A stretch of 29,170 bases of DNA, taken from the IMG/VR virus record IMGVR_UViG_3300022744_000081, positions 1 to 29,170 of that record; one strand, given 5' to 3'. Of this stretch, positions 11,789 to 21,371 are shown piece after piece. A program made the translations under genes and the position numbers. This DNA comes from a virus. How positions within the stretch are numbered: the first letter of the stretch is position 1; each line of letters starts with the position of its first letter. The notes under the pieces are model-generated. The model saw nothing but the letters and a program-made list of their open reading frames with translations. It had not been told where the DNA came from and did no database searches.

Positions 11789-12124
11789 ATGAAATCCCAT
11801 GTGTCTTTGGAGCAGCACCAGTGCCCCGTATGCCTCTCCGTGTTCGATACTGGCAGCATACTGCTAGACAAGCGCCTGCGGGAAAGCATGGAGCAACACA
11901 CCGTCACTGGGCAGTCGCTATGCCCCTCCTGCGTAGATCGCAAAGAGCAGGGATACATAGCCCTGATCGAAGCTGATGAGCGTACGCACAAGCGTCTTGG
12001 TCGCGTGGTACATCTTCGCTCAGAAGCATGGGGCAAAGTGTTCAATGTGCCGCCACCAGAGGGCGGTATCTGTATGGTGCCTTCAGCCGTCATCGACCAA
12101 CTCGTGAGCATGGTCGGCGGGTAA
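11789..12124 (+). CDS. Conserved Cys-containing phage/plasmid protein
   Basis: 111 residues from ATG 11789. MKSHVSLEQHQCPVC, then DTGSILLDKRLRESME, LCPSC, and EQGYIALIEAD: two CxxC knuckles around a GxILLDxRL segment. I recall this arrangement from many hypothetical proteins of phages and integrative elements in Pseudomonadota. A structural zinc is likely; the function is not known to me. The C-terminal half (VFNVPPPEGGICMVPSAVIDQL) follows the same family pattern. Confidence 0.86.
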   Translation: MKSHVSLEQHQCPVCLSVFDTGSILLDKRLRESMEQHTVTGQSLCPSCVDRKEQGYIALIEADERTHKRLGRVVHLRSEAWGKVFNVPPPEGGICMVPSAVIDQLVSMVGG

Positions 12125-12133
12125 CTGGCTCCG

Positions 12134-12178
12134 TACAATGTAGTTATTGAAATCGATTTCAAATCCCAGAAAGGGGAC
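12134..12178 (+). promoter_or_regulatory. Promoter and leader of the 12184 operon
   Basis: CTGGCTCCG-TACAAT (box 12134-12139) then the palindrome (12148-12161) and the leader CCC-AGAAA-GGG. Here both the first and last stem positions differ from TCC/GGA, preserving pairing. Confidence 0.65.
12148..12161. promoter_or_regulatory. Dispersed palindrome, copy 7 (TGAAATCGATTTCA)
   Basis: Perfect palindrome 8 nt downstream of the TACAAT box and just before the leader of the 12184 gene. Confidence 0.85.
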
Positions 12179-12183
12179 ATCTG

Positions 12184-12402
12184 ATGAGCAAGCAATACAC
12201 CACCCGCACTGGCCTAGTCCAGTACAAGCCGTCGTTCAAGCAAGTGCAGAACATGGAAGACAACATGCGTGGCTTTTGCCTCGCCTGCGGCAAGACGCAG
12301 AGCGGAGTCGAGCCTGATGCTCGCAAGTATGAATGCGAGCATTGCGGGAAACCTAAAGTGTATGGACCGGAAGAGTTGGTTCTGATGGGCCTTGTCTATT
12401 AA
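12184..12402 (+). CDS. Zinc-ribbon mini-protein
   Basis: 72 residues. RGFCLACGKTQSGVEPDARKY ECEHCGKPKVYG has CxxC at about 32-35 and 51-54, a classic zinc ribbon, and ends EELVLMGLV. I recall this GFCLACG...CEHCG...VYG pattern in phage mini-proteins of unknown role. Likely binds nucleic acid or protein. ATG 12184 after AAAGGGGACATCTG. Confidence 0.85.
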   Translation: MSKQYTTRTGLVQYKPSFKQVQNMEDNMRGFCLACGKTQSGVEPDARKYECEHCGKPKVYGPEELVLMGLVY

Positions 12403-12416
12403 CTGAGGAGATGCAA

Positions 12417-12686
12417 ATGCGTGAAAAGAATCTGTTGCAAGAGCGTAGCTTCCGGGGCGGTGTCCAGAGGCTGTACAAGTTCCCGAACGGCTATGGTGCC
12501 AGCGTCGTGCGGCACGAAGGCAGCTACGGCCATGAAGCTGGGAAGTGGGAGCTTGCGGTAATCAAGTTCGACGCTGACGGGGCGAATTGGGACCTGTGCT
12601 ACACCACCCCTGTCACGGACGACGTAGTCGGCTGGTTGTCGGACGATGCCGTAGATGAGGTGCTGGTAGATATCGAGGCATTGTGA
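12417..12686 (+). CDS. Hypothetical protein
   Basis: 89 residues. ATG 12417 is 6 nt after GAGGAG; the in-frame ATG at 12411 abuts the Shine-Dalgarno and is less likely. Strand-rich (GGVQRLYKFPNGYGASVVRHEGSYG, then GKWELAVIKFDADG). A C-terminal acidic helix follows. Overlaps the next start by 1 nt (TGATG). Family not recognised. Confidence 0.79.
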   Translation: MREKNLLQERSFRGGVQRLYKFPNGYGASVVRHEGSYGHEAGKWELAVIKFDADGANWDLCYTTPVTDDVVGWLSDDAVDEVLVDIEAL

Positions 12687-12868
12687 TGGGACAGCTTCGC
12701 CTGTACTTCAATAATGGCAAGACGCCTGTACTCATCATGCCCGACACGCCTGAGTATCTGAAATGGCATACGCCTGCGCGGGGAGAGCATCCGTGGCGTA
12801 TCGTCAATGATCGCGGGGGGCTAGTGTCAAGCTACTCCCCTGCACCTATCCATAGGGTGAAAAGATGA
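12686..12868 (+). CDS. Small hypothetical protein
   Basis: 60 residues from ATG 12686, coupled by TGATG to the previous stop. QLRLYFNNGKTPVLIMPDTPEYLKW then a loop-rich basic C-terminus (APIHRVKR). Family not recognised. Confidence 0.74.
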   Translation: MGQLRLYFNNGKTPVLIMPDTPEYLKWHTPARGEHPWRIVNDRGGLVSSYSPAPIHRVKR

Positions 12869-13077
12869 ATGAACGTCTGACTGTGTTGCGGGGAGGTATT
12901 CTCCGTTATCGCTATGATGTGAATAAGTACATCGGTTTCAACTTCAATACACTGGCCGAAGTCGGTGAGCCCTACCAGCAATGGTTCCGTTATGAAATTG
13001 CGCGGAGAGGACTTACTGTTACCTACGGGAAGGAACTCGACTGCAAGCCTTGGATAGCCGACGTAGTGGAGAGATAA
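12865..13077 (+). CDS. Small hypothetical protein
   Basis: 70 residues starting in an ATGA overlap. Aromatic and basic (RYRYDVNKYIGFNFNTL, WFRYEIARRGLTVTYGKELD). Family not recognised. It is immediately followed by another small frame. Confidence 0.76.
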   Translation: MNERLTVLRGGILRYRYDVNKYIGFNFNTLAEVGEPYQQWFRYEIARRGLTVTYGKELDCKPWIADVVER

Positions 13078-13194
13078 GTGAGGCGGGCGAGGGACATACT
13101 ACTATTCCTATTAGTGAGTCTTCCTGTATACACTCTGTATTGGAGACACCTATCTCGCTGCGAAAGATTCATCCGCAGGAACAGATTGAAATAA
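13078..13194 (+). CDS. Probable small membrane protein (38 aa)
   Basis: GTG 13078 lies directly after the previous TAA, with GGAGAG 4-5 nt upstream. The product is VRRARDILLFLLVSLPVYTL followed by YWRHLSRCERFIRRNRLK: one hydrophobic segment (about 7-22) flanked by positive charges. The context fits a translationally coupled small membrane protein, but the shortness leaves doubt. Confidence 0.5.
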   Translation: MRRARDILLFLLVSLPVYTLYWRHLSRCERFIRRNRLK

Positions 13195-13611
13195 GTGGGC
13201 GGGGAGGCTAAGTGCAATAAGAAGAAAGATAGAATGGATATAGACTGAATCCAATAGAAACAAGCCTGATCTATTCTACATCTGCGATGAATTCCATTAT
13301 TTGTGCCAAAAATCTACCCACCCTCACAGCAAGTTTTCTGTCGTGCTGGGATTTCTGAGTCAGATATATAGTTTTTGTGCAGTTGTGCAGTAGTGTCATA
13401 GTGCAAAATCGGACCTAAAAGTGCGATTTCATTGGGGGTGATGTCACTTTGCCCTATAGAGAGAACCATTAGGTGCTGGCACGCGACAACATTAACCTTT
13501 CTGGTGGAAAGCGATGTAGTGCTGGCACGTGGGCATCATTACTACTACTGCTGGTATCTACTGTCTCTACTGTAGTAGTACTGCTGGTGCCTGCCCCGCG
13601 ATTATGTGTCT
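13195..13611. other. Non-coding, repeat-bearing stretch
   Basis: No gene that I can support. It is richer in A/T than its flanks on the left (13230-13420), carries a lone half-site (GCGATTTCATT, about 13423), clustered GTGCA words (13377-13405), AAGTTTTCTGTC (13331, repeated at 14669), two GTGCTGGCAC repeats, and a TACTAC/GTAGTA inverted repeat (about 13542-13580). It is the left flank of the candidate origin. Confidence 0.55.
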
Positions 13612-13612
13612 A

Positions 13613-13682
13613 TTGTGGCCCTCCCCTGAACCCGGATAATGGGAAGCCTAGCAGTTGAAACCGATTTCAATCCAGACAGGAG
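13613..13682 (+). promoter_or_regulatory. Promoter and leader of the 13689 gene
   Basis: TTGTGG (13613-13618), 16 nt, GATAAT (13635-13640), the palindrome (13656-13669), and the leader TCC-AGACA-GGA. Confidence 0.65.
13656..13669. promoter_or_regulatory. Dispersed palindrome, copy 8 (TGAAACCGATTTCA)
   Basis: 15 nt downstream of the GATAAT box and abutting the leader of the 13689 gene. Central variant CCGA. Confidence 0.82.
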
Positions 13683-13688
13683 AATGTG

Positions 13689-13949
13689 ATGTCCCTTCAA
13701 GCACAGCAGCAATCTGCCCGCCGCTCGCCATATTACGCTGCCTATCAAAATGGTTTCCGAGCCGGGGAGGTGGATGCTGAACTCGGATCGTGTGAAGGAT
13801 CGCATTTCGATTCTCCGCCCGAGGGCGTTAATCCTGACGCCTACCACGAAGCCCAGATGTGGGGCTACAACGACGGGCGGGAAGCGAATAGTGAGTCTCG
13901 CTCCGCGTGGAGCATCCTCGCCTATCTGGATAACGAATACTGTATCTGA
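13689..13949 (+). CDS. Hypothetical protein
   Basis: 86 residues from ATG 13689, 6 nt after CAGGAG. YYAAYQNGFRAGEVDAELGS and YHEAQMWGYNDGREAN are two copies of a short YxxGxxxG helix-like motif, seen in many small phage proteins. Function unknown. A strong terminator follows. Confidence 0.8.
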   Translation: MSLQAQQQSARRSPYYAAYQNGFRAGEVDAELGSCEGSHFDSPPEGVNPDAYHEAQMWGYNDGREANSESRSAWSILAYLDNEYCI

Positions 13950-13975
13950 TCGGATTTGTTGGTGCATGGTGATTT

Positions 13976-14003
13976 GGGGAGGCTTCGTGCCTCCCTTCTT
14001 TTT
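13976..14003 (+). terminator. Intrinsic terminator
   Basis: GGGAGGC-TTCGT-GCCTCCC (13977-13995) followed by TTCTTTTT. Ends the 13689 transcript. Confidence 0.88.
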
Positions 14004-14100
14004 GACTCTGCTATCTGGTGCTGGCACGTGCGCCTTATTACTACTCTGCTGCCTTCGGTTATAGGTGCTGGTGGTAGGTGTCTGGGCGGCTGGATTTCGT

Positions 14101-14116
14101 TATAAAAATATTTATA
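14101..14116. promoter_or_regulatory. AT-rich inverted repeat upstream of the 14125 promoter
   Basis: TATAAA-AATA-TTTATA, a 6-bp inverted repeat 8 nt upstream of a good -35. It may be an UP-element or a binding site. Confidence 0.5.
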
Positions 14117-14124
14117 CAAACCGC

Positions 14125-14153
14125 TTGTGCTTCGTCGCTGTTTCAGGCATAAT
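14125..14153 (+). promoter_or_regulatory. Strong sigma70-type promoter of the 14205 gene
   Basis: TTGTGC (14125-14130), 17-nt spacer, CATAAT (14148-14153), then GGCTTCAC. The leader ends CCC-AGAAA-GGG. An AT-rich upstream element adds strength. Confidence 0.75.
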
Positions 14154-14204
14154 GGCTTCACGGTCAAGACGCGACCGGATACCATCCCAGAAAGGGGACC
14201 TGAA

Positions 14205-14558
14205 ATGACCACCAAGACCACCACCAAGCCCGCTGCCGCCAAGCCCACCCAGAAGCCCGCACCGCGTGCCAAGCCGGCGACCAAGACCCTGTTCTACGCT
14301 ATGCTGCTCGCCGATGCGCTGATGGGCAAGTACGGGGCGCAACTGCAGCGCTTCTACGTCAATGCCTGCAGCTACCACCTGAAGGGCAAGACCACCTTCC
14401 CCCGTGCCCGCCTCGCCAACGAGCCGCTGCTCAAGCCGGAGGACGCGGTGGCCTTCCTGAAGAAGCACGAGCAGACCAGCATCCCTGCCGGTAGCAAGGT
14501 GGGCCAGCGTCTGTACGACGAGATGATGGTCCAGACTGCCAGCAAGGCTGCCAAGTAA
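14205..14558 (+). CDS. Basic hypothetical protein, GC-rich paralogue of the 15541 product
   Basis: 117 residues. A disordered-looking K/T/P/A tail (1-28) precedes a domain with KTLFYAMLLADALMGKYG, QRFYVNACSYHLKGKTTFPR and SIPAGSKVGQRLYDEMM. The 15541 product shares the same blocks (QRFYVNAIAYH, FPRARLA, SIPAGSKQGQKLFDQMM). Its strong promoter and position beside DnaA boxes suggest an abundant DNA-associated protein, which is inference; I do not recognise the family. Confidence 0.85.
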   Translation: MTTKTTTKPAAAKPTQKPAPRAKPATKTLFYAMLLADALMGKYGAQLQRFYVNACSYHLKGKTTFPRARLANEPLLKPEDAVAFLKKHEQTSIPAGSKVGQRLYDEMMVQTASKAAK

Positions 14559-14559
14559 G

Positions 14560-14593
14560 TTACCCACAGGGGGTTGTGGATAAGTTATCCGCA
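14560..14593. other. DnaA-box-like triplet, left group
   Basis: TTACCCACA (14560, one mismatch), TGTGGATAA (14575-14583, a perfect box on the - strand) and TTATCCGCA (14585-14593, one mismatch) within 34 nt, directly after the stop of the 14205 gene. Confidence 0.6.
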
Positions 14594-14658
14594 GCCTCCT
14601 GATTAATTTTCATGCCAGCCCTGCTGCTGGCGCTGCTGAATTTTTGCTGCTGAACGAT

Positions 14659-14680
14659 GGACAGAAAAAGTTTTCTGTCC
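14659..14680. other. 22-bp inverted repeat
   Basis: GGACAGAAAA and TTTTCTGTCC form perfect 10-bp arms with a 2-nt centre. There is no T-tract after it. The right arm recurs as AAGTTTTCTGTC at about 13331. Likely a protein-binding site in the origin-like region. Confidence 0.65.
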
Positions 14681-14745
14681 CCTGCTGGCACTGAGCCAAC
14701 TCAACCCCCTGCTGGTGGCCGTCGCGTGCTGGTGGTGCTGAGGAT

Positions 14746-14759
14746 TGAAATCGATTTCA
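14746..14759. promoter_or_regulatory. Dispersed palindrome, copy 9 (TGAAATCGATTTCA)
   Basis: Perfect palindrome 41 nt upstream of the GATAAT box of the 14845 gene, the same layout as at 8036 and 10281. Confidence 0.85.
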
Positions 14760-14777
14760 CCGGGGCGGTGGTGAGGG

Positions 14778-14837
14778 TAGCGGAGCGGCTTGTGGGTAGG
14801 GATAATGAAGACTCCTACCACCAACCCCATATAGGGA
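14778..14837 (+). promoter_or_regulatory. Promoter and leader of the 14845 gene
   Basis: TAGCGG (14778-14783), 17 nt, GATAAT (14801-14806). The leader is CCC-ATATA-GGG, another paired change from TCC/GGA. Confidence 0.62.
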
Positions 14838-14844
14838 GCCTCGT

Positions 14845-15057
14845 ATGTCCAAGATGCACATCTCCGCAGCAGTCGCCGCCGTTATCTTCGCCGCTGATGT
14901 TCCAGCCTCGGATGATGCCCTCGCCCATGTCGAAATGGATTTGTTCAGCGCAGGCGTCGAAGAGAACTACCTGATGCCCGGGCATGGCTTCCAGTCGGTC
15001 CATGACTACATCGATTGGATCAACGACGGTGAGGATGCCCGCTTTGAGATGAACTAG
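14845..15057 (+). CDS. Small acidic hypothetical protein
   Basis: 70 residues from ATG 14845 after AGGGAGCCTCGT. The N-terminus (KMHISAAVAAVIFAADVPASDDALAHVEMDLF) is hydrophobic but too charged for a clear signal peptide. The C-terminus DYIDWINDGEDARFEMN is acidic. Family not recognised. It lies within the origin-like region. Confidence 0.78.
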   Translation: MSKMHISAAVAAVIFAADVPASDDALAHVEMDLFSAGVEENYLMPGHGFQSVHDYIDWINDGEDARFEMN

Positions 15058-15061
15058 CACC

Positions 15062-15085
15062 AAGCCCTACGGGGCTTTTCTTTTA
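15062..15085 (+). terminator. Intrinsic terminator
   Basis: AGCCC-TACG-GGGCT (15063-15076) followed by TTTCTTTTATT. Ends the 14845 transcript. Confidence 0.78.
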
Positions 15086-15199
15086 TTCCATCATCTGCTG
15101 GCACTGAGCCAATATTACATATAGTGCTGGCACCCAGCCTTTATTACTGTTACTGCTGCTGAAAGGCTAAAAACGTGGCTGCCGGCCATGCGATTTGAG

Positions 15200-15440
15200 T
15201 TATCCACAGGTTATCCACAGGGCGGCGACTTATCCACAGGTTATCCACATATCCACAGGCCAGCTTGTTGATATGTTAATAACTTGGGGATAACTCAAAA
15301 TGCAAGCGAGTTATCCACAGATAGCGAAAATTCATAAAAGAGCGAAAATCGATACAAAAATATTTCATGGATTGCTATAAAAAAGTTCTTGCAATCCGCG
15401 ATTTTCAACTATAATTCAGTCACAGCAACAGAAACACTCT
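15200..15440. other. Candidate replication origin: DnaA-box cluster plus AT-rich DNA
   Basis: Perfect TTATCCACA on the + strand at 15200, 15211, 15230, 15241 and 15311; a near copy (ATATCCACA) at 15249. Boxes 1-2 and 3-4 are paired at 11-bp spacing, one helical turn. From 15265 the DNA turns AT-rich (TTGTTGATATGTTAATAACT, then A/T runs to about 15440), as expected for a duplex-unwinding element. No gene overlaps. Binding by host DnaA is inferred from the consensus. Confidence 0.72.
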
Positions 15441-15530
15441 TTAAAAATTCGGCGGATGTAGGGGTAGTCTCAAAGGATGCCGCTTGTATCGGCGAGACCC
15501 CGAAACCGAAAACCTTTCATTCCATATCGG
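15389..15530 (+). promoter_or_regulatory. Promoter and leader of the AT-rich island
   Basis: TTGCAA (15389-15394), 15 nt, and a perfect TATAAT (15410-15415). A long (about 120 nt) leader ends TCC-ATATC-GGA before ATG 15541. No palindrome is present. Confidence 0.65.
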
Positions 15531-15540
15531 AGAAAATACC

Positions 15541-15864
15541 ATGCAACAAAAAACCCAAACCAAACAAACCCAAACCAAACAAACCCAAACGAAAGCAAAA
15601 ACGCTTTATTACAAAGCGCTTTTAGTTGAATGTTTGGCGGGGAAGTTGGGGAGCGAAATTCAGCGCTTCTATGTAAATGCTATCGCTTATCATACGAAGC
15701 AAAAAACAGCATTTCCCCGGGCACGTTTGGCAGATGTTGAACTAATGAAAATCGAAGAGGCTAAAAGCTTCCTCGAAAAGCATAAGGCGACATCGATTCC
15801 GGCGGGCAGCAAACAAGGCCAAAAGCTTTTTGATCAGATGATGATTGAAGCTAAAGCCAAGTAG
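15541..15864 (+). CDS. Basic hypothetical protein, AT-rich paralogue of the 14205 product
   Basis: 107 residues. The tail is a repeat of QTQTK-type units encoded by a tandem DNA repeat (about 15552-15595), then KTLYYKALLVECLAGKLGSEI, QRFYVNAIAYH, TSIPAGSKQGQKLFDQMM. Roughly half the residues align with the 14205 product, yet codon use is A/T-rich where the other is G/C-rich, so this copy was probably acquired from a different source rather than duplicated here. ATG 15541; the Shine-Dalgarno is CGGAGAAAATACC. Confidence 0.84.
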   Translation: MQQKTQTKQTQTKQTQTKAKTLYYKALLVECLAGKLGSEIQRFYVNAIAYHTKQKTAFPRARLADVELMKIEEAKSFLEKHKATSIPAGSKQGQKLFDQMMIEAKAK

Positions 15865-15870
15865 GCAAAC

Positions 15871-15896
15871 GGCGGGCAGAAATGCCCGCCTTTTAT
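15871..15896 (+). terminator. Intercistronic hairpin, possible terminator
   Basis: GGCGGGCA-GAAA-TGCCCGCC followed by TTTTATT. A near-identical hairpin follows the next gene (16260). It could terminate part of the transcription or protect mRNA ends. Confidence 0.7.
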
Positions 15897-15915
15897 TCCA
15901 GAATGGAGAAACAGA

Positions 15916-16251
15916 ATGAACACGATATATAAAATTGTTGCGGGTAATTCGGTCCGCTATATCCGCGCAACAAACGCCGCGAGCGCTCGCGTAAGGGCGT
16001 TTAAGGTATGGGGCATCAAAGCCGCGCAAACGTTCGCCATAGGCGAGCAAACGCCCGATATCGGCGCAGTTGGTTATGATGCAGCATGTAACCAAATGGA
16101 AGCGGCAACAAGCGGCGCAAGCTTGCGGGCAATGCAGAAGGCGGGCGGCGCAGATAATACCGGGCGCTCTTTCTACAAAGTAACAGAGAAAGAGAAAACA
16201 AAGGTTAATAACAAAGCAATTGCAATGATGCAAATGCTAGGTTTAGCCTAA
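15916..16251 (+). CDS. Hypothetical protein of the AT-rich island
   Basis: 111 residues from ATG 15916; leader TCC-AGAAT-GGA. VAGNSVRYIRATNAASARVRAFKVWGIKAAQTFAIG is basic and probably alpha/beta; EKTKVNNKAIAMMQMLGLA ends it. Not recognised. Codon use is A/T-richer than the genes outside the island. Confidence 0.79.
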   Translation: MNTIYKIVAGNSVRYIRATNAASARVRAFKVWGIKAAQTFAIGEQTPDIGAVGYDAACNQMEAATSGASLRAMQKAGGADNTGRSFYKVTEKEKTKVNNKAIAMMQMLGLA

Positions 16252-16259
16252 TCAAAAAC

Positions 16260-16280
16260 GGCGGGCAGAGATGCCCGCCA
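16260..16280 (+). other. Intercistronic hairpin, repeat of 15871
   Basis: GGCGGGCA-GAGA-TGCCCGCC differs from the hairpin at 15871 by one loop base. No T-tract, so more likely an mRNA-stabilising element than a terminator. Confidence 0.65.
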
Positions 16281-16301
16281 TATTCCATAATGGAGAATAT
16301 G

Positions 16302-16460
16302 ATGAAACGCAAGCATGAACAAAAACCTTATACCGTTTTCGGTTCAGTTAAAACAATTCGGATTATTTGGAGCGCAACTATTCGAGGCGCATTAATCCGC
16401 TTTATTAAACAAACGGGCGAGAATGTAGATGCAGTCTTGCCGGGAGCGATGATTAACTAA
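16302..16460 (+). CDS. Small basic hypothetical protein
   Basis: 52 residues from ATG 16302 (an adjacent in-frame ATG at 16299 is also possible), after the leader TCC-ATAAT-GGA. KRKHEQKPYTVFGSVKTIRI, then IWSATIRGALIRFIKQTGEN. Basic, part of the AT-rich island. Not recognised. Confidence 0.65.
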   Translation: MKRKHEQKPYTVFGSVKTIRIIWSATIRGALIRFIKQTGENVDAVLPGAMIN

Positions 16461-16471
16461 AAGGAAATCAA

Positions 16472-16585
16472 ATGTTATATAAAGGAAATGCAATAAAGAA
16501 AACCGATTATTATTTAATTGGTTTTTCGATTATCTCTTTTTCGATTTTCGTTTATACATTCTATGAATATATCCGGCTTATTTAG
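16472..16585 (+). CDS. Probable 37-residue membrane protein
   Basis: ATG 16472, preceded by AAGGAAATCAA, opens MLYKGNAIKKTDYYLIGFSI ISFSIFVYTFYEYIRLI, ending at TAG 16583-16585. Residues about 13-31 form one hydrophobic segment after a positive N-terminus. It is the last gene before the island's terminator. Short, so moderate confidence. Confidence 0.5.
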   Translation: MLYKGNAIKKTDYYLIGFSIISFSIFVYTFYEYIRLI

Positions 16586-16638
16586 TTTGTTTATTATTTT
16601 TATAATAACCTTGTTAATATTCTTTTAATTAGAAAATC

Positions 16639-16664
16639 GGGCATACATAATGCCCCTTTTTTTT
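16639..16664 (+). terminator. Strong intrinsic terminator at end of AT-rich island
   Basis: GGGCAT-ACATA-ATGCCC followed by eight or nine T. The strongest terminator in the window; it marks the right edge of the island. Confidence 0.92.
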
Positions 16665-17010
16665 AACCTCAGGGTGGAGTAGGTTTTTTGTACGGACGAA
16701 AATTTGAGTCATACCCATAGCTTTTTTTGTATGGTTTCTTTTGCGTACCGGATTTGAGGTCACCCCCATAACCTTTTTTGTCGGACTAGAGTCGGACTAA
16801 ATTTTGAAATCGATTTCAATTTCAGGGGTATCCAATTTTTGTCAGAGTCAGGGCAGAGCGCGGATCGAAGCCGGAAGTCACCCCCTATACACTTTTAGAA
16901 AAAATTCGCGGGGACAGGCCAGAGCGTTACCTTGTACTTACCGAAGGTCTTACCGAAGGTCTTACCGTGTATCTACACTATAGGCAACCAAGGTTGCGCC
17001 CGCGTGGTAG
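16665..17010. repeat. Non-coding stretch with imperfect direct repeats
   Basis: No gene seen. TTTGAGTCATACCCATA (16703), TTTGAGGTCACCCCCATA (16753) and GAAGTCACCCCCTATA (16874) are imperfect copies of one unit, each followed by a T-run with GT or similar. CTTACCGAAGGT is repeated in tandem at 16937 and 16949 with a partial third copy at 16961. A perfect palindrome lies at 16805-16818. Spacing and length suggest control DNA or a remnant, not a transcript I can name. Confidence 0.6.
16805..16818. promoter_or_regulatory. Dispersed palindrome, copy 10 (TGAAATCGATTTCA)
   Basis: Perfect palindrome in the repeat-bearing stretch, about 240 nt before the next gene, followed by a second TTTCA (ATTTCAATTTCA). 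Confidence 0.83.
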
Positions 17011-17039
17011 TTTGGTCTATTTGCTGGATGCGAGATAAT
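17011..17039 (+). promoter_or_regulatory. Probable promoter of the 17059 operon
   Basis: TTTGGT (17011-17016), 17 nt, GATAAT (17034-17039), then AGGAGG at about 17048-17053. Confidence 0.5.
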
Positions 17040-17058
17040 AGGCGGACAGGAGGAAACC

Positions 17059-17229
17059 ATGATCGAAAAGCTAGAAGTCGATGTAGAAGACATCACGCCA
17101 GAGATGGCACAGAAGATACTTGACTGGATCGCCATGGGCGAACAGATCGTCGAAAAGGACTTGCGCCCGTTCTATCTATTCAGGGCCGGCGCTTGGTGGT
17201 CGGATAGACCTTGGAGGAAAAGACCATGA
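17059..17229 (+). CDS. Small hypothetical protein, Trp-rich C-terminus
   Basis: 56 residues from ATG 17059, after ACAGGAGGAAACC. MIEKLEVDVEDITPEMAQKI is helical; the C-terminus ends FRAGAWWSDRPWRKRP. It overlaps the exported-protein gene by ATGA, so the two are coupled. Family not recognised. Confidence 0.76.
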   Translation: MIEKLEVDVEDITPEMAQKILDWIAMGEQIVEKDLRPFYLFRAGAWWSDRPWRKRP

Positions 17230-17582
17230 GATTGCTGCTTTTGGTTCTACTTGCATTCAGCGTGCAGGCGGAGACCATCTATAAATGCGGGAAGGCATAT
17301 TCTTCTGAGCCGTGTCCAAATGCAGAAGTGCTTCAGATGTCGCGGGAGGCTAACGTGGTTCAGGCCACCCCCATTACGCAAGACACGACACCAAGCAACT
17401 ACACCGTCTACGGTGGATCACTTCCGTCTTATGGCCAGTCGTATCGACCGGGAGGACCCACTGGCTATACCGTGTCTACTCCGTTTGGGCAGTTTTCGAG
17501 CAAAGACCCCATACGTGTTGATGGTGTCGGGCTCAGGCAAGGCGTTACAATCAACGGCGTCACATATCGCAAGGGCAGATAG
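17226..17582 (+). CDS. Exported protein with N-terminal signal peptide
   Basis: 118 residues. ATG 17226 gives MRLLLLVLLAFSVQA-ETIYKCG, a typical Sec signal peptide with an AxA-like site before Glu16. The mature start YKCGKAYSSEPCP resembles DUF4124-type proteins, which have two Cys near the N-terminus, perhaps as a disulfide. The rest is Gly/Ser/Pro/Tyr-rich, ending GVTINGVTYRKGR. Predicted periplasmic or outer-surface. An envelope role such as superinfection exclusion is conjecture. Confidence 0.82.
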   Translation: MRLLLLVLLAFSVQAETIYKCGKAYSSEPCPNAEVLQMSREANVVQATPITQDTTPSNYTVYGGSLPSYGQSYRPGGPTGYTVSTPFGQFSSKDPIRVDGVGLRQGVTINGVTYRKGR

Positions 17583-19665: not shown

Positions 19666-20130
19666 ATGCCGAAAATTATCCGCCCGATTGTCGAGTTCGA
19701 CCTACCCAGACCGGAGGCGGACACCCCACTGAACTACACGCCCGACTTTCGGGGAGCCGACCTACGAGGCGCAGACGCACGTAGCGCTGTTCTGGACGAC
19801 TCACTTTTTACTTCTGCCTCTTTCCGTCGTGCAAACTTCACCAGAGCGGACTTCTCTGGCGCAATCTTTAACAACTGCATATTCGAGTCCGCCATCATGG
19901 ACGGCGTATCAATCAGCAAGAAGCACATTGCGCTGTACGGACTGCGCCACCTTGTCCTGATTACACCGACTCACATGTTTATCGGCTGCATGAACCACAC
20001 GCATGAGGATTGGCGCAACATGCCCCTTGAGTCTATCCTCGCGCAGGACGAAGGTGCCGCCGAAATTTGGGGCGCGTGGAAGGACGCCTTACTCGGTGTA
20101 TGCGCTACACTAGCCACAGGCATTCTATAA
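19666..20130 (+). CDS. Pentapeptide-repeat protein
   Basis: 154 residues. About residues 28-83 are pentapeptide repeats of the A(D/N)LxG type (FRGADLRGADARSAVL, SASFRRANFTRADFSGAIFN), predicted to form a right-handed quadrilateral beta-helix. The C-terminal part (HLVLITPTHMFIGC then a Trp-rich helical stretch) is common in phage pentapeptide proteins. Roles in the family vary; DNA-mimicry as in Qnr proteins is known for some members, but not shown here. Confidence 0.87.
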   Translation: MPKIIRPIVEFDLPRPEADTPLNYTPDFRGADLRGADARSAVLDDSLFTSASFRRANFTRADFSGAIFNNCIFESAIMDGVSISKKHIALYGLRHLVLITPTHMFIGCMNHTHEDWRNMPLESILAQDEGAAEIWGAWKDALLGVCATLATGIL

Positions 20131-20986: not shown

Positions 20987-21002
20987 TTTGGAGAAGGTGA
21001 AC

Positions 21003-21371
21003 ATGGCAAAACTCCCGCCGACCAAGCAGGCCCCGACCAAGGTCGCACCGGTCAAATCTACCCCCGCAGCACCCGTAGTTACCCCCGGCGAAAAGTACTC
21101 GCTGGTCGATTTGCGCGACAACGTTGCAGCCAAGCTGCCCCTCGTCGCCAAGGCAACTGTCGAGAAAGTCATCCTCGCCACGTTCGAGGAGATGTCTCGT
21201 GCCTTCCTGTCGGGTAAAGCTGTGACCATCAAAGACTTCGGCAAACTCGAAGTGAAGCACCGCCCTTCGCGGCAGGGGCGCAATCCGGCAACCGGTGACA
21301 CGATCACCATCCCAGCCAAGACTGTCCCGAAGTTCACCTTCGCAAAGAAGCTGAAAGACGGCGCAAAGTAA
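21003..21371 (+). CDS. HU/IHF-family DNA-binding protein with N-terminal tail
   Basis: 122 residues. About 1-30 is a K/P/A/T tail; 36-122 fits the HU/IHF fold: dimer-forming helices (SLVDLRDNVAAKLP, TVEKVILATFEEMSRAFLSG), a VTIKDFGKLEVK strand pair, and the beta-arm with QGRNPATGDTI, where the RNPxTG Pro intercalates into DNA. The fold ends with the KFTFAKKLKD helix. Binds and bends DNA, perhaps in packaging, replication or transcription. Start ATG 21003 follows GGAGAAGGTGA. Confidence 0.92.
   Translation: MAKLPPTKQAPTKVAPVKSTPAAPVVTPGEKYSLVDLRDNVAAKLPLVAKATVEKVILATFEEMSRAFLSGKAVTIKDFGKLEVKHRPSRQGRNPATGDTITIPAKTVPKFTFAKKLKDGAK

Follow-up and report, generated by a model that had tools for sequence, protein, structure and literature searches.

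Does a phage that carries a tight cluster of DnaA boxes recruit the host initiator to start its own replication, or does it soak the initiator up against the host? Phages whose own proteins carry out their replication are not expected to need host DnaA. Phased arrays of DnaA boxes lie in many unrelated phages, often outside known origins, and either answer would connect takeover by phages with the clock of the bacterial cell cycle and offer simple cis elements for controlling that clock. We addressed the question at one such array, in a 29,170-base virus fragment in IMG/VR (the window, meaning the whole stretch analysed), for which the original prediction had proposed a replication origin.

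The window contains six perfect TTATCCACA boxes, five on the plus strand (15200, 15211, 15230, 15241 and 15311) and one on the minus strand (14575). One-mismatch boxes lie at 15249 (ATATCCACA), at 15285 on the minus strand (TTATCCCCA), and at 14560 and 14585. All of the boxes named in the original prediction lay where it had placed them. The five plus-strand perfect boxes fall within 120 bp (15200-15319), with two one-mismatch boxes interspersed; a local order-3 Markov model predicts about 0.03 such boxes per 4.3 kb. When up to one mismatch was allowed, the window had 16 sites, as against 4.7 ± 2.0 in shuffled sequences, none of which reached 16, and no other 8-mer clustered four or more times within 300 bp anywhere in the window. 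Chance is excluded as the source of the cluster. The core array (15200-15257, plus strand) consists of the perfect boxes at 15200, 15211, 15230 and 15241 followed by ATATCCACA, with start-to-start spacings of 11, 19, 11 and 8 nt and every box on the same strand; with 11 nt between paired boxes and 19 nt between pairs, it is helically phased. From these sites, binding of the array (15189-15390) by host DnaA is near certain.

Positions 15058-15540 form a non-coding gap of 483 nt, and the array lies within it. The earlier description of a gene-poor segment is a relative one, as plausible small genes occupy 14205-14558, 14845-15057 and 15541-15864. An imperfect inverted repeat is found around the array (15189-15304; 31-nt arms at 15189-15219 and 15274-15304, 81% complementary and 54 nt apart), its single-strand DNA fold scoring z = -4.2 relative to shuffled DNA, and its right arm contains the minus-strand box TTATCCCCA (15285-15293). 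The last perfect box (15311-15319, plus strand) adjoins an AT-rich stretch. Two AT-rich direct repeats (AGCGAAAATTCATAAAA and AGCGAAAATCGATACAA, 15323-15357) come right after this box, GC content is 35% at 15301-15400, and a candidate unwinding element at 15327-15386 ranks third for low duplex stability among the separate 60-bp loci of the window, within the top 0.4% of positions. The predicted AT-rich stretch is therefore real, and it lies right of the array, immediately on the 3' side of its last box; in bacteria the unwinding element is on this same side. An AT-rich promoter could also account for the instability at 15327-15386.

The 3' flank of the array contains no CTA/TTA-type run of the kind that forms a DnaA-trio, a basal unwinding system that is not universal among origins. 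Between the boxes, the only IHF-like site (15261) has one mismatch and is not significant. GC skew showed no clear switch across the window, which is short and has nearly all of its genes on one strand, and the search for Rfam elements returned none that was convincing.

Portal, XkdF-type protease and capsid genes (Pfam matches) occupy 23.9-28.6 kb and are homologous and syntenic with those of Pseudomonas phage PA_L9, a Samunavirus (48% identity for the portal, 55% for the capsid); Stenotrophomonas phage DLP_5 has the same synteny and is more distant. Positions 1 to ~22 kb are filled by a series of small genes, mostly without assigned function. Judged from its sequence, the carrier is a Samunavirus-like tailed phage, and the 29-kb fragment falls in the small-gene part of its genome, ahead of the portal gene. 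In the window proteins that were scanned, which derive from an incomplete fragment, neither a Rep initiator nor an integrase nor a replication helicase was detected; PA_L9, DLP_5 and a related 80.9-kb contig, the three relatives checked, encode a DnaB-type helicase of their own. None of the relatives examined has the array, among them PA_L9 and DLP_5, whose genomes are complete, and the 80.9-kb contig; a search of these relatives for some other non-coding repeat array in its place found none. The only strong repeat cluster in the relatives, on the 80.9-kb contig, lies inside a repeat-rich open reading frame and was rejected as a substitute. Because the relatives examined carry no such array, it is, as far as sampled, lineage-specific.

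The original prediction held that DnaA boxes would be unusual in a lytic-looking phage; this is contradicted by the recurrence of such arrays in many phage groups. A three-box pattern was present in at least 120 viral contigs, compared with 1 for the control pattern, in which the box was reversed. Together with the window, the matches form 61 sequence groups, about 60 of them unrelated by sequence comparison; the groups are a sample, and the prevalence that they indicate is a lower bound. Only 17 of the 120 listed matches overlap an open reading frame of at least 120 aa, the majority being non-coding and beside phage genes. The largest neighbour proteins of the listed arrays are phage terminases, portals, primases and helicases, and DnaA is absent among the neighbour protein families listed, which argues that the arrays are mostly not stray host origins. 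A box spacing of 11-12 nt dominates in the ~60 groups and is still the mode among spacings that the search pattern did not force. On the flank where an unwinding element would lie, these groups showed enrichment of neither AT nor DnaA-trios; the AT bias of the other phage arrays is on the opposite flank, and the groups share no sequence beyond the boxes.

A BLAST comparison of the array with named phages returned 318 records, often in unannotated DNA, from Klebsiella and other T7-like phages, T5-like phages, Arthrobacter phages, Microviridae and others; many of these matches span only ~20 nt, so the count is not a number of arrays. The full genomes of matched phages, picked for matching the array, showed clustered boxes. 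In the T7-like Klebsiella phage Kp7 and Shigella phage A7, the same boxes occur at both genome ends at equal offsets, and the arrays appear to lie within both terminal repeats; the known origin of T7 is internal, not terminal. Limnohabitans phage DC31 carries five boxes in a 930-nt gap among small hypothetical genes, a microvirus has five just upstream of its replication initiator gene, and some matches in T5-like phages fall inside terminal repeats. The densest array observed, in viral contig L210 around 12984, comprises 28 DnaA-type boxes (23 perfect) within ~800 bp.

A marine phage family unrelated to the carrier was sampled regardless of boxes. In 28 of its 65 members, three or more perfect boxes share a single gap next to an AT-rich stretch; 301 kb of other sequence contained 0 perfect boxes. 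Strict conservation of the boxes was rejected, as this gap lacks a perfect box in 27 of the 65 members. Where a member has one box or none, the gap holds arrays of another repeat. In marine relatives L245-L247, which have no boxes, arrays of CCCATGCAA, CGTGCCAACT and GGTTGACA lie 700 nt upstream of the match and adjoin the AT-rich stretch that box-bearing members also have, as though one binding motif had been exchanged for another in the box-less phages.

Our leading reading, which we hold tentatively, is that 15189-15390 serves the phage in cis as an origin-like element. DnaA would load in head-to-tail order on boxes that are one or about two helical turns apart, with the inverted repeat supporting loading, and would melt the AT-rich direct repeats that follow the last box closely on its 3' side; the opened stretch would help to load a helicase encoded by the host or by the phage. 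DnaA binding in vivo, unwinding, helicase loading and origin use are all steps that we infer. The reading is favoured by the phasing, by the inverted repeat, and by an unstable repeat stretch that lies flush with the last box on the expected side. It is favoured too by the excess of perfect boxes over the number expected, by a paired spacing of 11 nt that falls within the preferred 11-12 nt of ~60 independent phage arrays, and by the marine family, in which boxes are concentrated in one gap beside an AT-rich stretch. In oriC, box spacing in whole helical turns is important for function (PMC4285127). The proposed origin-like layout was upheld: the tandem boxes are one turn apart, and unstable AT-rich direct repeats follow them directly on the 3' side. 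Several observations argue against an origin: the relatives examined lack the array and three of these encode their own DnaB-type helicase, DnaA-trios are missing here and from phage arrays generally, AT bias elsewhere lies on the opposite flank, the arrays of two T7-like phages are at genome ends and not at the internal origin of T7, and the GC skew of this short window, with nearly all genes on one strand, shows no clear switch.

Like bacterial oriC, the array has a high-affinity cluster of several TTATCCACA boxes in helical register and adjacent, unstable AT-rich repeats 3' of the box strand; unlike oriC, it has no dnaA/dnaN/gidA context, no DnaA-trio next to its last box, a spacing unmatched in the genomes searched, and no counterpart in relatives. 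P1 oriR and iteron plasmid origins contain DnaA boxes. The window resembles them in placing tandem boxes by AT-rich DNA in a phage, with short direct repeats (TGCTGGCAC) nearby, but no adjacent Rep initiator gene was found among the scanned proteins of this incomplete fragment, and the TGCTGGCAC repeats, unlike tandem iterons, are scattered through four gaps. Another parallel is Pseudomonas phage vB_PseuGesM_254 (PseuGes_254), in which Ori-Finder predicted an origin with DnaA boxes and an AT-rich region (PMC11512268); both origins are predictions.

The same observations that count against an origin (relatives without the array, no trios, no AT flank, terminal placement) favour titration, in which the array would capture host DnaA on incoming and multiplying phage DNA, starve oriC and stop host initiation. 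We consider this decoy function possible but rather doubtful. It fits arrays that occur in ~60 unrelated sequence groups with nothing shared beyond the boxes, that lack DnaA-trios and an AT bias on the unwinding-element side, and that are found at both genome ends in two T7-like phages; the arrays of the window and of phage DC31 also both lie among runs of small hypothetical genes. Morigen et al. reportedly found in 2003 that excess datA titrates DnaA and delays initiation. The E. coli datA locus titrates DnaA with five boxes (PMC12371093), and the array is likewise a non-coding locus of about five DnaA boxes; it differs from datA in being on a phage, in having perfect and tightly phased boxes, and in its IHF-like site, which is one mismatch from consensus and not significant. 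However, 5-8 boxes per genome would be a small sink until the phage had replicated, and a pure sink would have no need of the unstable AT-rich stretch and the promoter-like element that directly adjoin this array.

We judge it unlikely that the array controls transcription, with upstream DnaA activating or repressing the promoter of the 15541 gene and so coupling its expression to host DnaA. That gene (15541-15864, plus strand) lies downstream of the array and encodes a 107-aa protein of unassigned function, whose 117-aa paralogue (58% identity) is encoded at 14205-14558 on the plus strand. When the upstream regions of the two paralogues were aligned, the array appeared as ~150 bp of extra sequence before 15541 only, lying between a TGCTGGCAC motif and the 15541 promoter, an anatomy that allows for regulation. 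A perfect TATAAT -10 element with a poor -35 (15410-15415, plus strand) lies upstream of the gene and ~90 bp past the last box; this combination would suit an activator-dependent promoter; the element was read from the sequence, and the promoter scan did not flag it. The boxes are, moreover, many more than regulation requires, and for the 15541 product no protein family was found, nor any relative in viral contigs or phages. Origin function, titration and promoter regulation are not mutually exclusive.

No relative of the 14205 product was found in plasmids, and an AlphaFold model of the flanking paralogous proteins was too poor for use (pLDDT 57). Third-position GC is 0.88 in 14205-14558 and 0.44 in 15541-15864, as if one copy had come from another genome.

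The group of three boxes predicted to the left of the array is present at 14560-14593 (TTACCCACA on the plus strand, a perfect TTATCCACA on the minus strand and TTATCCGCA on the plus strand), but is mostly contained in a 16-pair terminator-like hairpin (14567-14601) directly after the 14205 gene. Because of this overlap, the left group is weaker evidence than the array, and it may be dual-purpose or incidental. The TGCTGGCAC direct repeat occurs six times, always on the plus strand (13474, 13520, 14019, 14683, 15096 and 15125, the last two spanning 15096-15133), against 0.05 expected per 4.3 kb. All copies are confined to the non-coding gaps of 13.4-15.2 kb, with none elsewhere in the window, and they often come after a terminator-like hairpin and precede an ATTACT-type sequence. 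We rejected TGCTGGCAC as a sigma-70 or sigma-54 promoter, since most copies have no fitting second element.

We give very little credence to a role in DNA structure or entry like that suggested for the injection stop signal of T5. The T5 signal is rich in repeats, palindromes and DnaA boxes (PMC13250531), features of phage early DNA that the array shares, and T5-like phages, some with boxes inside terminal repeats, are among those that match it. The carrier, however, is an unrelated phage whose window has no recognised T5-like genes, the array is internal to the contig with no sign of a terminus, and the relatives of the carrier are neither T5-like nor in possession of the array. Chance or host-derived oriC debris is a very remote prospect: absence from relatives would allow recent acquisition, but chance fails on the box statistics, the 11-19-11 four-box spacing matched no bacterial or archaeal genome searched (so that capture from a host oriC was rejected), no DNA relative of 12000-17500 was found among phages, and no plasmid carries most of the array.

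Our literature search covered open-access papers, with subscription journals and preprints outside its scope, and found none that treats phage DnaA-box arrays as a class; there are only scattered notes on phage DnaA boxes (T5, PMC13250531; PseuGes_254, PMC11512268). We offer, as a conjecture that is far from secure, that phased arrays capturing host DnaA may be a common device that tailed and small phages have evolved repeatedly, serving to shut off or hijack host initiation early in infection, that the window would be one lineage-specific instance, and that the class would be undescribed.

A phage-encoded HU/IHF-type DNA-binding protein is predicted at 20988-21368 (Pfam PF00216, 2e-24), and a pentapeptide-repeat protein at 19666-20127 (PF00805, 5e-15). 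A 16-bp palindrome, TTGAAATCGATTTCAA, occurs with at most two mismatches at 15 sites across the contig (1650, 2624, 4461, 8035, 9934, 10280, 12147, 13655, 14745, 16804, 19042, 20972, 23521, 26516 and 28619), and resembles an operator or regulatory site used throughout the phage genome.
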